Shown here in pieces: positions 1 to 6,498 of a DNA stretch of 64,000 bases (within the stretch, counting starts at the first letter, position 1; each line of letters begins with the position of its first letter). The stretch lies in contig JAIOYV010000021.1 of the NCBI GenBank assembly GCA_021740905.1, forward strand, positions 1-64,000, read 5' to 3'. The stretch comes from Bacteroidales bacterium (lineage in GTDB: Bacteria > Bacteroidota > Bacteroidia > Bacteroidales > M50B96). Under the pieces are notes generated by a model. It had not been told where the DNA came from. It searched no databases and was given only the letters and a program-made list of their open reading frames with translations. The translations under genes were made by a program, and so were the position numbers.

Positions 1-659
1 CGTTCTATTGGTGGCTAGCAAACTCGAACATTTGTACCTCCAGTCAATATTATTTGGAACGGTGCTACGTTCAGCCCTTCAGTGATAGTCTCTTATGTCG
101 GGATAGCCGCCCACTTATACGCTTATAAGCTGCCAATCTATCCATGCTGTTAATACTACATACCACCTACTATGGCCTCTGCTGGTTGCTCATAGATATT
201 TATTTTTTGCATTCGCGATTTCCGCTTCGCTTCAATTCTTGGTGCATAGGAATACCAAACCTAATCCAAGACCTCCCCCGTGCCTGTCCCGTACCGAAGG
301 TCGGGATAAGAGCTTTTTCCTTCTGTCAATCCCTGCTGGATCTACTACTTTGGCCATCCGCATACCTATGGGTTTTGGACGTCGGCATGATGTGCTACCT
401 TATCCGGCCTCGTAGCCTCATATCCAGTTTCTGTTCGACAGTACCAACCTTTGTAGTCCTGCTTCCTTCAGTCCTTGGGTCGCCCCAAGCAACCTTGCAG
501 CTTACTAATGGTTCGAGTCGTTACTCCCGCCCATGAGAGACTTTCACTCTCTGGAAAAAAAAATGAACACCTGTTGCTTGCCCTTGAAAATAAATTTGTA
601 TTTTTCGATTTTTTCAAGAGCTTACAACGGGTGTGCACTGCTGCTCATGCAGGGCACAC
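1..659 (-). ncRNA. Group II intron 5' portion (domains I-III), truncated by window start; probable group IIC-attC type
   Basis: The reverse complement starts GTGTGCCCTGCATGAGCAGCAGTGCACACC (GUGYG 5' consensus). It has the domain I motif CCAGAGAGTGAAAGTCTCTCATG (about 526-554). It is near-identical in long blocks to 4100-4925, which lies upstream of an RT N-terminus. Confidence 0.75.
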
Positions 660-785
660 ATATCAGCTATAGCAAATGCGGGCTGACTGTTTAAAATGAA
701 GATATTGCAAACAAACAACATTCGGTCTGGCGGACAGGAATTCGGTTTCAAAATCCCGCACTTGCCATAGCCAGTGCCGTTAGCG
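660..785 (+). repeat. attC-like site A (integron cassette recombination site)
   Basis: Imperfect palindrome: CAGCTATAGCAAATGCGGG pairs with CCCGCACTTGCCATAGCCAGTG. The right core GTTAGCGTTC (779-788) is the exact reverse complement of GAACGCTAAC at the left of site B. Confidence 0.65.
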
Positions 786-794
786 TTCATTAAG

Positions 795-1661
795 ATGAAA
801 AACAGACACTTACATATAATAATTGGATTTTTGTTATTCGGATTTATTTCCTGTATTGGGATTAAAACGATTAAACAGACAACCTATATTGGAAATTTTA
901 GAGAAAGCAATTATGGCTTTTTTGAATCTTTCCGTCACACAAATGACCAAGATTATTATTATAATTTGCCATTTGAGTTAAAATTCGGTGGGATTAGACT
1001 ATATCCATTTGATTCGATAGGAAAGAAGGATTATTCTTGGTTGAGAAATCCTACTAACTTGAAAATAGCCTTTAATTCAGTTAAACTAATCGGACTTGAT
1101 AAGTTTGTATCATTTAGACAATACAACAAAAAAAATTCAGATTGGTGCTGTGATACACAATGGGAAAATAAATCACTAAACGACATCGTAAAAGGATTTT
1201 TGCTTTCCGATACTATTTCTAATGGAAAGGATTATTATTCCAAATTTTGGCAGAGACGAAGAATAGAAAAAAATCTAAAGGAAGCTTGGCAGATTTTTCA
1301 ACAGATAGATGATTTTTATAATAGTAAAAAGTCTATGGTTACAGAATCCACCTTTGATACTACTCTTTATCAATTACTTGATTATGACATTAAACTGATT
1401 AATTCAGATTCTCTTTCCTATCCAAAGATAACTCTTAGGTATTTTGATTATCTAAAAAAGATAGAATTGGATTATTCAGCATATAAATTGATTTTCCACA
1501 ATTCGAGATTGAATTTTTCTAGAACATTTAGAGATAGTCTTTTATTGACAATGAAATATGATACTTTAGACGTTGAAGATTGGGGAAAAATGAATGATAA
1601 TATTGATGGATGGATAACTGGGGAGATTTATCCTGACCCAAATAGAAATTATGGACCTTAA
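795..1661 (+). CDS. Hypothetical exported/lipoprotein-like protein, cassette cargo
   Basis: ORF 774-1661. The ATG at 795 gives an N-terminal hydrophobic segment (MKNRHLHIIIGFLLFGFISCIG). It lies between attC-like sites A and B. Confidence 0.7.
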   Translation: MKNRHLHIIIGFLLFGFISCIGIKTIKQTTYIGNFRESNYGFFESFRHTNDQDYYYNLPFELKFGGIRLYPFDSIGKKDYSWLRNPTNLKIAFNSVKLIGLDKFVSFRQYNKKNSDWCCDTQWENKSLNDIVKGFLLSDTISNGKDYYSKFWQRRRIEKNLKEAWQIFQQIDDFYNSKKSMVTESTFDTTLYQLLDYDIKLINSDSLSYPKITLRYFDYLKKIELDYSAYKLIFHNSRLNFSRTFRDSLLLTMKYDTLDVEDWGKMNDNIDGWITGEIYPDPNRNYGP

Positions 1662-1674
1662 TATAAAAATTAAC

Positions 1675-1808
1675 GAACGCTAACAAATGGTAGAGTTCAT
1701 GCGGGTTTTAGGGGTTTTCTAGCGTTTGTGACTCGTAAACAAAGCAGGTAGTAAAATGATAAGAAACAGCTTCGAAATCCCGCACGAAACCCTACCATAA
1801 ACCGTTGT
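1675..1808 (+). repeat. attC-like site B
   Basis: GAACGCTAACAAATGGTAG...GCGGGTTT...AAATCCCGC...CTACCATAAACCGTTGT palindrome. Strongly similar along its length to site C (5757-5900). Confidence 0.75.
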
Positions 1809-2610
1809 TGCGACACGAGGTCGCATAAGTGATTGTTTTACTGAGAGATTAGTTCTTTGATAAAACCTGTTGTTCTCCCAACAGTACCCTACCGGGACAG
1901 CTGATGTATGGCTTGCCCCGTGAAATAAAAGCTTTGCTATTTAACGGGGTGAACCATTATTGGTTGTACCGACCGAAGGGAGTTCACGAACACCTAAAAA
2001 ATTAATATTCTGTGAGTAAGCTCCCGGGAAAATGTACCAATCGCTTGGATTTTGCATCCTCATAGCGGGGCAAGAAACCGCAAGGTGGACGGTCTTCGGG
2101 GTCTCGATACCGATTAAGGGCACGGGTTAGTGGGTATGGCTAAAATATTTGAACATTCCGAAACTGTCGTCAGAAAGTAAGGGGCGCAAAAGAGAATGAA
2201 CCGCCCTGCATCCTTCGAAGGTTGGATGTGCTGGCAAGTTACGAGCGTTTAACGCAGCTCTTACGGAGACGTAGCCCAGCCGGCAGACAGGATGAGCCTA
2301 ACCCCACACAATTTGTCACTTATGTGGAATCCCGAAATAATCGGGACAGGCTGTGGAAGCCCGGCGCTATCTCTCGATTTTCAATCGGGATAAAACCGTA
2401 ACCGCAAGGCTTCGGGAACAAAGCGAAGCGATCTCATGAACGCCTTAGAATAAACATTATGTGAATAATGTAGGCAAATTACTACATTTGTGAAACATGG
2501 AACGAAAACAAACAGCCGGGTTTCCCCTCACCGGGTCAGCCTTAAAAGTGCCTGAGCCGTATGCCGGGAAACTGGCACGTACGGTTCTTAGGGGGCGTAA
2601 GCTACCCGGT
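1807..2610 (+). ncRNA. ORF-less (RT-deleted) group II intron; ends approximate to about 5 nt
   Basis: 5' end TTGCGACACGAGGTCGCATAAGTG. Domain V GAGCCGTATGCCGGGAAACTGGCACGTACGGTTC at about 2552-2586, followed by a domain VI-like stem GGGGGCGTAAGCTACCC. Only about 100 nt separate the ATGAACGCC ORF-start remnant from domain V. Confidence 0.85.
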
Positions 2611-2676
2611 GGTGGTATTTTTACGAAGACATCATCCTAAATGAATTCATAATGTTGTAAATTTGAAAGAAAATAT

Positions 2677-3741
2677 ATGATATTACTTTTATTCTATTTA
2701 TTTCTAGCTCTATTTGTTTCATTCCTCTGTTCTATAATGGAATCAGTACTTCTTTCTACACCTCAATCCTTCCTGATTGTTAAGCATGAAAAAGGGAATG
2801 TTTGGGCAAAAGCATTTATTGATTTAAAAAACAATATTGATAAGCCATTATCTGCAATTTTATCATTAAATACAGTAGCGCATACAGTTGGTGCAGCTGG
2901 AGTTGGAGCACAAGCAGTTAAAATATTTGGAGAAGCATCTTTTGGAATTATATCAGCTATTTTAACAATTTTAATTTTGGTAATCACAGAAATAATCCCA
3001 AAAACAATTGGAGCCAGATATTGGAGAAATCTGGCAATGATTACTTCTCGAATTATACAAGTAATGATAATTATAACCTATCCATTAGTTGTTATGTCAG
3101 CGGTAATTACGAAACTTGTTTCAAAAAACAGGCAAGAGCAAACTACCAGTCGAGAAGAAATAGCAGCATTAGCAAATATAGGAGCAGATGAAGGCGTTTT
3201 TTCAGAAAAAGAACATAAAATAATTCAAAATTTACTTAAACTCAAAAATGTAAGTGTAACAAAAATAATGACTCCAAGAGTTGTTGTAGCAGTTGCTTCC
3301 GAAAAACTATTATTAGAAGAATTCTTGAAAAACAAAGACTATTTAAAATTCTCACGAATACCAGTATATTCAGAAAATGATGAAAACATAACAGGATATG
3401 TAATTAGACAGACCGTTTTTGAGAAACTTGCGGAAGACCAGCATGAATTAAAACTGAAAGATATTAAAAGGGATATTGTTATAGTTCCAAATTCTATCGT
3501 ATTATTTACTTTATGGGAAAAACTATTAGAAAAAAAAGAGCATATTGCCTTAATCGTCGATGAATATGGCGGCTTGGATGGAATTGTAACAATGGAAGAT
3601 ATTATTGAGACATTGCTTGGACTTGAAATTATTGATGAAAAAGATACTATAACTGACATGCAAAAATATGCAAGAGATAGATGGAAAGAAAGACAAGCTA
3701 AATACAATATATTGGACAAATTAAATAACCAGGACGAATAA
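2677..3741 (+). CDS. CNNM/HlyC-CorC family transmembrane protein (DUF21 + CBS pair)
   Basis: N-terminal TM DUF21-like region (FLALFVSFLCSIMESVLLSTPQS...ITEIIPKTIGARY) and CBS region (KIMTPRVVVAVAS...HIALIVDEYGGLDGIVTMEDIIETLLGLEI). Confidence 0.9.
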   Translation: MILLLFYLFLALFVSFLCSIMESVLLSTPQSFLIVKHEKGNVWAKAFIDLKNNIDKPLSAILSLNTVAHTVGAAGVGAQAVKIFGEASFGIISAILTILILVITEIIPKTIGARYWRNLAMITSRIIQVMIIITYPLVVMSAVITKLVSKNRQEQTTSREEIAALANIGADEGVFSEKEHKIIQNLLKLKNVSVTKIMTPRVVVAVASEKLLLEEFLKNKDYLKFSRIPVYSENDENITGYVIRQTVFEKLAEDQHELKLKDIKRDIVIVPNSIVLFTLWEKLLEKKEHIALIVDEYGGLDGIVTMEDIIETLLGLEIIDEKDTITDMQKYARDRWKERQAKYNILDKLNNQDE

Positions 3742-3746
3742 AAAAC

Positions 3747-3893
3747 ACCACCTAACAATATAGGATTTAAGGCTCTGTTGAGCCAAAAAAAATGAGACAC
3801 GAAGGTTGAAGTACCGACATGTCTCTTTAGGTTTATTGCCCGGTCCAGTCTCCCAAAGCTCAATTGAGTTTTAAATCCTATATTGTTAGTGCC
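3747..3893 (+). repeat. attC-like site D
   Basis: ACCTAAC left core and GTTAG right core. The exact 17-bp arms AACAATATAGGATTTAA (3754-3770) and TTAAATCCTATATTGTT (3871-3887) flank about 100 nt. Confidence 0.8.
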
Positions 3894-4099
3894 TCAGGGT
3901 TATCGTCGAGGTATCGTTTCAACTCTTTTACGTTCATCTTGTCTATCCCGGCCGCCCCTTTGTTCCTGATCAACTTGCGGCTTGCAACGGTCAGGTTGCC
4001 TGCCCGCAGGAAGGTTTCAATTAAATCTATTTGTTGTAATTTGGTTAATCCTCGTTCCTGTTGTATTTTCCGGTGGCGTCCGCCAACTGGCCGATCCAT
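3878..4099 (-). pseudogene. N-terminal fragment of group II intron reverse transcriptase/maturase
   Basis: MDRPVGGRHRKIQQERGLTKLQQIDLIETFLRAGNLTVASRKLIRNKGAAGIDKMNVKELKRYLDDNPEALTI; typical maturase N-terminus (RNKGAAGIDKM). The frame ends inside attC-like site D. Confidence 0.85.
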
Positions 4100-4925
4100 T
4101 CGGAATTAACAACGTTTTAAAGTTCAGTCCTTCTGATACATCGCTTCTTTGTGGGACAAGCCCGGCTAACACAGTTCGCTCCCCGAAAGTGACCGGGGCA
4201 GGCTGTGCGCCGCTGCCTATCAGTTTTGTTCACCTTTCATACCTCAAAGTACCATACTATGGCCTCTGCTGAGTTCTTGGTGTATAGAAATAGCTTTATT
4301 GAGCTTTCCGAAGCACCAAATCTAATCCAAGACCTTCCCCGTGCCTGTCCCGTACCAAAGGTCGGGATAAGAGCTTTTTACTCATAGATTTTTTTTTTAA
4401 GGTATTCGTGAGATCGGCTTCGCCATAGTTACTCACAGGCTTAACTTTTTTGGTGTTCGTGAGACCGGGTTCGCCTAAGTCCCTTCGGTCAATCGCTGCT
4501 GGATCTACTACTTTGGTCATCCGCATACCTATGGGTTTTGGACGTCGGTATGATCCCGAAGATCGGGACAGGTAGTGTTACCTCATCCGGCCTCCTAGCC
4601 TCATATCCAGTTCCTGTACAGCCTGTCCCGCACCAAAGGTCGGGATCAGTACCAACCTTTGTAGTCCTGCTTTGTTACTCCCGTTGGTCGTGAGATCGCT
4701 TTGCTAAGTTCCTTCAGTCCTTGGGGTCACCCCAAGCAACTACGTTTTTTCATTCGGTAAAAGTGCAGCTTGCTAATGCTTCAAGGCGTTACCCCTGCGC
4801 ATAAGGGACTTTCACCCTCTGGAAAAAAAGGAACACCTGTTGCTTACCCTTGAAAATAAATTTGTATTTTTCGAATTTATTCAGAGCTTTCAACGGGTGT
4901 GCACTGCTGCTCATGCAGGGCACAC
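3888..4925 (-). ncRNA. 3'-truncated group II intron (domains I-III plus RT start), probable group IIC-attC type
   Basis: The reverse complement begins GTGTGCCCTGCATGAGCAGCAGTGCACACC. It has the domain I motif CCAGAGGGTGAAAGTCCCTTATGC (4799-4822) and leads into the RT start at 4099. It is a second copy of the 1-659 element. Confidence 0.8.
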
Positions 4926-5350: not shown

Positions 5351-5749
5351 ATGAAAATAATAAAGAAAAAAATCGATATAGTAGTTGAAAAAACCGACAC
5401 CGGATTTTCAGCTTACAGTAATGATTTTCCAATTTTTACAACTGGCCGGACTATCCCCGAACTGATTGATAATGCTTTTGAGGCAGCAAATCTATATTTC
5501 GAAGATGAGAATGTTGAGATACAACATGAAAATTTAAAATTCGAGATTGATTTTAAACAGTTCTTTCAGTATTATAAAGTGCTAAACTCAAAATTCTTGG
5601 CTGATAAGATTGGTATGAACCCGACATTATTATCTCAATATGTACAAGGACATAAGAAACCATCAGATAAACAGACTGAAAAAATACTATTTGGCATTCA
5701 TCAGATTGGACAAGAATTGTCTGAGATTAACTTGATTTATAGACATTGA
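5351..5749 (+). CDS. hicB: HicB-like antitoxin with C-terminal XRE-type HTH
   Basis: HicB-like N-terminus (VEKTDTGFSAYSNDFPIFTTGRTIPELIDNAFEAANLY) and HTH (FLADKIGMNPTLLSQYVQGHKKPSDKQ). Adjacent to hicA. Confidence 0.8.
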   Translation: MKIIKKKIDIVVEKTDTGFSAYSNDFPIFTTGRTIPELIDNAFEAANLYFEDENVEIQHENLKFEIDFKQFFQYYKVLNSKFLADKIGMNPTLLSQYVQGHKKPSDKQTEKILFGIHQIGQELSEINLIYRH

Positions 5750-5756
5750 TTGAAAT

Positions 5757-5900
5757 AAGCACTACTTACAACAAATGGTAGAGTTCATGAGGGTTTCAGA
5801 GGTTTTTGGGCGTTTGTGGCTCGTAAAAAAGGCAGGTAGTAAACTGATTATAAACAGCTTCGAAATCCCGCACGACACCTTACCATAAACCGTTGTGGTG
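5757..5900 (+). repeat. attC-like site C
   Basis: CTTACAACAAATGGTAG...AAATCCCGC...TTACCATAAACCGTTGT. Closely similar to site B. Confidence 0.75.
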
Positions 5901-5961: not shown

Positions 5962-6498
5962 ATGAACAAATCGGAAATTCAAATATTTACGACCAAATAT
6001 GGAAAGACTGAAATTGAAGTCCAGCTAGACAATGAAACAGTTTGGTTAAATCAATACCAACTTGAATCTTTGTTTGAAACGGACAGGACTTCTATTAACC
6101 GACATATTTCGAATATTTATAAAACAGAAGAACTTGAGGGAAATTCAACTTGTGCAAAAATTGCACAAGTTCAAAAAGAAGGCGAACGTGAAATAAAACG
6201 AAACATAAAATATTACAACCTTGATTTAATAATTGCAGTCGGTTACCGTGTCAATTCAAAACGGTGAACTGAATTCAGAGTAAGGGCAAACAAAGTTTTA
6301 AAGGATTTTTTAATAAGAGGATTTTCATTAAATGAAAAACGGTTATCCAAACAGAATAATCCATTAAATCGTGTCGATTGTAATATTGTTACTAATGGGT
6401 TGTTGGATAAAGATGAAAATGTCTGTATCGCTGGTAGATATGAAATTTTATATCAGTATGATGGAGAAGATTTAAAAGACTTTACCCAACAACAATGA
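5962..6498 (+). pseudogene. RhuM-family (virulence RhuM) protein interrupted by in-frame TGA
   Basis: MNKSEIQIFTTKYGKTEIEVQLDNETVWLNQYQLESLFETDRTSINRHISNI...YYNLDLIIAVGYRVNSKR*TEFRVRANKVLKDFLIRGFSLNEKRL. The stop is at 6265-6267 where RhuM proteins usually have Gly, and the same frame stays open to 6498. Confidence 0.8.

Follow-up and report, generated by a model that had tools for sequence, protein, structure and literature searches.

A CAGG-tailed palindromic repeat with filled and empty sites in Bacteroidota, first seen in group II introns

Hairpin copies at the locus

The window analysed here, positions 1-64000 of the 78.4-kb contig C56 from the 6.54-Mb Bacteroidales genome G000, carries six hairpins of one family inside or close to three group II introns, all within the first 4.65 kb. 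The unit is a TCCCG-loop-CGGGA hairpin followed by an unpaired CAGG and then usually a C, 19-27 nt in length; on the opposite strand it reads as a hairpin preceded on its 5' side by a tag CCTG, which is usually GCCTG. How single bacterial palindromic repeats spread is an open question, because clean pairs of filled and empty sites are rare and repetitive extragenic palindrome (REP) units decay in place. For the present unit, filled and empty sites give good support to the view that it is mobile. The copies in the window and the introns that host them are as follows.

282..306, minus strand: element copy TCCCGACCTTCGGTACGGGACAGGC, common to both copies of the RF02001-type intron
311..489, minus strand: group II intron copy 1, D1-D4 part (RF02001, 100.9 bits, full length), which lacks the two copy 2 inserts; the contig start cuts the intron short
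1866..2610, plus strand: third intron, which belongs to another type (D1-D4 part RF02012 at 1866-2121, D5/D6 RF00029 at 2552-2610)
2330..2351, plus strand: element copy TCCCGAAATAATCGGGACAGGC, in the RF02012/RF00029-type intron; the homologous intron of genome G017 is empty
4181..4203, plus strand: variant copy CCCCGAAAGTGACCGGGGCAGGC, CCCCG...CGGGGCAGGC, with a C-G foot pair instead of T-A
4343..4367, minus strand: element copy TCCCGACCTTTGGTACGGGACAGGC, the intron copy 2 counterpart of 282-306
4474..4736, minus strand: group II intron copy 2, D1-D4 part (RF02001, 41.6 bits), with two extra elements as unmodelled insertions
4554..4573, plus strand: element copy TCCCGAAGATCGGGACAGG, then T-A, ending in CAGGT; missing from intron copy 1; the intron model places it in a terminal loop
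4621..4645, minus strand: element copy TCCCGACCTTTGGTGCGGGACAGGC, missing from intron copy 1 and from those introns of relatives that read ACTGACGAACAG

The original prediction, made from the letters of the window, had listed six related palindromes, all of which are present at slightly shifted coordinates. Four of them (282-306, 4343-4367 and 4621-4645 on the minus strand and 2330-2351 on the plus strand) match a strict motif, defined as TCCCG-N3..12-CGGGACAGGC. When one mismatch to TCGGGACAGGC was allowed, the window held 5 matches as compared to 0.39 expected, a number reached by none of 100 shuffles. The two presence/absence differences that had been quoted between the intron copies were recovered, and in the alignment both are clean insertions. 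Placed on the RF02001 model, one of the extra elements of copy 2 lies in an unpaired stretch (4621-4645, after model position 51) and the other in the terminal loop. The 282-306 copy, shared by both introns, is an older insertion, and the DNA of its sister copy folds into an 8-bp bulged hairpin with the CAGGC tail unpaired. The hairpin stems are absent from the Rfam intron model, no such element was present in 15 further RF02001 matches from nine relatives, and where the core of a relative's intron could be read, the 4621 site holds CTGACGAACAG-like sequence.

Filled and empty sites

Joined flanks were used to look for empty sites, both within the genome itself and in its congeners and relatives. 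Fifteen host families from 10 genera have an aligned empty counterpart, and the filled site is longer by precisely one element, none of the 15 showing a target-site duplication or a loss of flanking sequence. In G000 itself such pairs occur in a GATT-repeat, a CGTC-repeat and the intron. Two species of one genus, G070 and G075, differ at sites in a palindromic host and in a protein gene; in the latter (L323, contig C1 of G070) the copy forms a 21-nt in-frame insert of seven codons, SRSSGTG, within a secreted-protein gene whose product has a PNPFNP-type C-terminal domain, and several G075 homologues are empty. Further pairs were found in G012, G015, G016, G027, G029 and G053, some at 94-98% identity. 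The prediction had described what looked like an actively inserting element: precise insertion is borne out by these pairs, whereas current movement is not, the freshest pair (98% identity, G053) being already ∼2% apart.

A single junction rule describes all 15 families, taken as the best pairs and typed by hand from the alignments: an empty X^C-Y becomes a filled X-[TCCCG...CAGG]-C-N-Y, where N is T in 12, A in 2 and C in 1. Flank positions -6 to +7 have at most one mismatch each, except +1, which is changed in 14 of the 15 (C>T in 12, C>A in 2). Since the search pattern demanded CAGGC, the C of the empty site is partly built in if that C is the target's own base. The 2330 copy adds a third empty-site comparison for the window, as the prediction had proposed for orthologous loci, this time with an intron from another genus. 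The homologous G017 intron, 71% identical over ∼300 nt, reads GGAA^C-GTGG as compared to GGAA[..CAGG]C-T-GTGG in the window. A TGTGGAA direct repeat around this copy was considered as a target-site duplication and rejected, because the empty G017 intron carries almost this sequence on either side of the site; the repeat is thus pre-existing. The 4554 copy went into a T rather than a C, from an empty GA^T-GTG to a filled GA[..CAGG]T-A-GTG.

The changed base can be read in two ways, both of which fit. Either the target C was changed to T or A, or the motif's final C belongs to the target and an extra base follows it; the second reading is favoured without being settled, as the G125 sites are ambiguous. 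Taking the constant terminal C as part of the element suits the copies followed by T less well than taking this base from the target (4554 in the window, and L469 and L475 of G075, where T follows CAGG in a GTAACC[C/T]GTAACC host). Across 19 carrier genomes the base after CAGG is C in ∼191 copies, T or A in 30 and G in none. Over 91 sites with distinct flanks, +1 is T at 60 and A at 17, +3 is T at 59 and -1 is G at only 6; the bias lies on the right side, C then T-N-T, with no fixed motif in the left flank. The 3' end of the element reads CT or CA in 77 of these 91 copies. Left and right flanks also pair with each other beyond re-paired flanks (0 of 300 shuffles reached the observed value), because of a minority of sites at the tips of other hairpins (L032, L158, L255). 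With 15 aligned pairs from 10 genera and a single-base rule at the junction, the chemistry is therefore testable on defined oligonucleotides, and since units sit in ribozyme loops and in frame in a protein, they are a natural source of short insertions.

Spread and structure of the family

Copies in genomes were counted by pattern searches with the strict motif, and the reversed pattern served as control. G000 has 19 strict copies and none of the reversed pattern, and the genome search with flanks that had been proposed at the outset places them in many contexts besides introns. Those beyond the window are mostly in unrelated sequence, such as a CCTGTCATCGTCC repeat and a GATTTTTGATT repeat. 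A 600-kb sample of G000 chosen independently of the motif held none, which indicates that copies cluster in repeat-rich places. The strict motif was found in 13 of 60 relatives and in 85 of the 396 genomes sampled across the phylum, with a maximum of 46 copies per genome; the reversed control gave ∼21 matches in the whole phylum sample and never more than 2 per genome. Named carriers in Bacteroidota include Algoriphagus, Belliella, Cecembia, Cyclobacterium, Salegentibacter, Flavobacterium, Niastella and Labilibaculum. In a scan of named genomes ∼38 of 119 stretches came from Bacteroidota and allies; the rest were scattered, many in GC-rich genomes, and outside the phylum matches of this kind may have arisen by chance.

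The ends of the unit are constant, while its interior varies between genomes and is often identical within one. Three observations suggest that the hairpin is under selection. The foot pair covaries (T-A in 14, C-G in 9 and all others in 7 of 30), the inner stem extends by a mean of 1.43 pairs as compared to 0.79 in shuffled insides (maximum 1.01 in 500 shuffles), and four typical copies, folded as single-stranded DNA, form the hairpin as expected and leave CAGGC unpaired (z -2.4 to -4.5), the C-G-footed variant being weaker (z -1.2).

Related sequences were noted alongside the strict copies. TCCCG..CGGGA hairpins number 161 in G000 as compared to 38 for the reversed pattern, and one hairpin of that genome, TCCCGACTGCATCGGGA, recurs without a CAGG tail (for example at C7:217, C11:23471, C16:1793, C27:17589 and C35:21236). 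The element or its core is also repeated in tandem on contig C77 of G125, at 188-nt spacing, and in L068 (Saprospiraceae), where CCCCGCCGTTAGCGGGACAGG units are directly adjacent. Beside an intact tRNA-Asp gene, L140 (G048), L256 (G211) and L258 (G295) have truncated tRNA-Asp copies whose anticodon arm is replaced by GCCTG-TCCCGA..TCGGGA; the element tag there coincides with the tRNA's own GCCTG, and in G295 the unit is present twice, 98 nt apart.

Possible machinery and relation to known repeats

We consider it moderately probable that the palindromes derive from a REP-like hairpin, non-autonomous and mobile, which bears a CAGG tag and is moved in trans, most likely by a Y1 (HUH) transposase. 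Such an enzyme, probably related to TnpA-REP or IS200, would act on single-stranded DNA, where it would recognise the foot, the tail and the hairpin and insert the unit. The insertions themselves lie usually directly 5' of a C and leave one new base (mostly T, otherwise A) after that C. Copies would persist mainly where an extra hairpin is harmless, in peripheral loops of ribozymes, at the tips of other palindromes and in protein linkers. TnpA-REP enzymes cleave beside a hairpin at CT, and one of them at CT and CA (PMC8266576). The model fits because an unpaired tail, a recognised hairpin, the absence of target duplication and a CT/CA exit are what TnpA-REP uses. A Y1 gene was present in all 13 carrier relatives as compared to 33 of 47 non-carriers (P = 0.02), and Y1 genes were found in all 14 carriers that were searched again.

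Several points weigh against this explanation. The motif occurs at none of 62 Y1 loci (30, 27 and the five genes of G000), whose flanks were read over 0.4 to 1.5 kb each, and the RAYT- or TnpA-REP-like partner that the original prediction had proposed to look for was found beside no copy (RAYT, REP-associated tyrosine transposase). A scan for tags near the Y1 genes found no CAGG-tailed hairpin that stands out, and the Y1 genes of G000 are flanked by other palindromes of their own. The HUH step is one that we infer, since no Y1 gene adjoins a copy and those of G000 have other palindromes. The co-occurrence with Y1 genes is weak and may reflect general repeat content. Part of the spread may be hitch-hiking with the host repeat, because some filled/empty pairs are paralogous repeat copies.

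A broader view, possible although we hold it only tentatively, is that these are phylum-wide mini-transposons of ∼20 nt whose ends, TCCCG/CGGGACAGG, are fixed and whose interior is free, moved by a machine distinct from known REP transposases. The target nucleotide, usually C, would be captured behind the CAGG tail and one T or A added, so that the new place gains an exit site of its own, C^T or C^A.

The unit could also be mobile through a machine that is not of the HUH kind, a group II intron-type or other reverse transcriptase copying RNA, or a repair polymerase, with the added base non-templated or arising by template switching. That no Y1 gene adjoins any copy speaks for it, as does the location of several copies inside group II introns (in the window and at L158). 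So does the odd base after the target nucleotide; to our knowledge it matches no outcome of IS200-type integration. The constant DNA-style tail and the covarying foot pair resemble REP recognition, however, and we judge this route unlikely.

Passive spread, in which recombination moves units only as passengers of a larger repeat such as a host palindrome, an intron or a tandem array, would account for the many copies that share a host repeat, as in G015, in the GATT family of G000 and in G070/G075. As a sole process it is contradicted by a single junction rule across 15 unrelated host families. The unit has exact junctions in many unrelated hosts, two different inner stems stand at one site of one host repeat in G070/G075, and near-identical units lie at two sites ∼280 nt apart in one intron of the window (4343 and 4621). 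We therefore regard it as improbable.

Less probable again is selection for terminators or protein-binding sites at each place. GC-rich stems and one copy after a terminator-like hairpin (L147) are in keeping with such a role, but a T run is lacking in most copies, terminators are not marked by a CAGG tail, the unit also lies inside introns and a coding frame, and the filled/empty pairs that exist are pairs of which this explanation predicts none. Native peripheral intron stems, gained or lost by ordinary divergence, would explain why the window copies are in introns and why 282 and 4343 form a pair common to both intron copies, but this reading, which the prediction itself had named as the one that would undo it, is refuted because the Rfam consensus and the relatives' introns lack the hairpins, most of the 19 genome copies are outside introns, and the unit is also found in unrelated repeats and a protein gene.

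Two super-families of tagged palindromes have been published, with GTAG and CGTC tags (PMC3733652). Like the GTAG-tagged REP/RAYT systems, or REPtrons (PMC3733652, PMC8266576), the present element is a short, dispersed palindrome with an unpaired tag at one end, varied stems and CT/CA at the hairpin edge. It differs in that all strict copies have CAGG (CCTG on the other strand) in place of GTAG, no RAYT stands beside the copies, and genomes hold 1-46 copies, mostly as single units with exact empty sites. The covarying short dispersed hairpin expected of a REP was thus found, and a RAYT neighbour flanked by the same palindromes was found at none of the 62 Y1 loci from its own genome, relatives and carriers. 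CGTC-tagged palindromes, including the Rickettsia palindromic elements, share the 20-40 bp size, the presence of a tag, the occurrence of some in coding genes and reports from Bacteroidetes (PMC3733652). By their description they have a CGTC (or TGTC, CCTC) tag, stems that begin with A-T pairs and a CCA end (PMC3733652), in contrast to the TCCCG/CGGGA foot and CCTG tag described here. RAYT subclass 2.6 of Bacteroidetes is associated with 'atypical secondary structures' (PMC6006769); a relation to the CAGG-tailed unit is conceivable, although the analysis revealed no link. Yeast mitochondrial GC clusters (PMC4478555) are likewise gene-free mini-palindromes that appear as insertions at polymorphic sites, but they carry AG or ACT direct repeats, and the present units have no target-site duplication.

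Miniature inverted-repeat transposable elements of DD(E/D) transposons are recognised by a target-site duplication, which none of the 15 families has. IS200/IS605 elements are similar in having hairpin ends and inserting without target duplication, and differ in their fixed target tetra- or pentanucleotide 5' of the insertion. Very small cyanobacterial mobile repeats of ∼20 nt, also present in non-coding RNA, were reportedly recognised by their filled and empty sites (Elhai and co-workers, 2008, cited in PMC3116915). They share this behaviour and the size, a likeness of behaviour and not of sequence, as we take their sequences to be unrelated; we know of no one-base junction rule for them. A string search of a limited collection of literature, including papers on repeats, found no published record of the CAGG-tailed motif. 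We class the element as a tagged palindromic repeat with a third tag, having neither the tag nor the RAYT of a REP, and this third tag would extend the two-family scheme. Elsewhere in G000, on contig C52, a Y1 transposase gene (L217, 5195-5656) stands between two sets of arrays made up of CACCCGA..TCGGGTG and CACCACAA..TTGTGGTG hairpins, a different REP-like system.

Other features were noted around the introns of the window. In intron copy 2, at ∼3895-4136 on the minus strand, a short frame (LQQIDLIETFLRAGNLTVASRKLIRNKGAAGIDK...) resembles the start of an intron-encoded reverse transcriptase, had no Pfam confirmation, and ends at an inverted repeat near 3889. A 160-nt repeat (1649-1808 and 5737-5896, 82% identical) and an inverted pair (3752-3783 with 3858-3889) each enclose single genes, much as attC-type cassette borders would. 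Near the end of the first 160-nt copy the third intron begins, and after the second lies a short RhuM-family frame (5962-6267; PF13310, 46 bits) that covers the first 40 of 252 profile positions.

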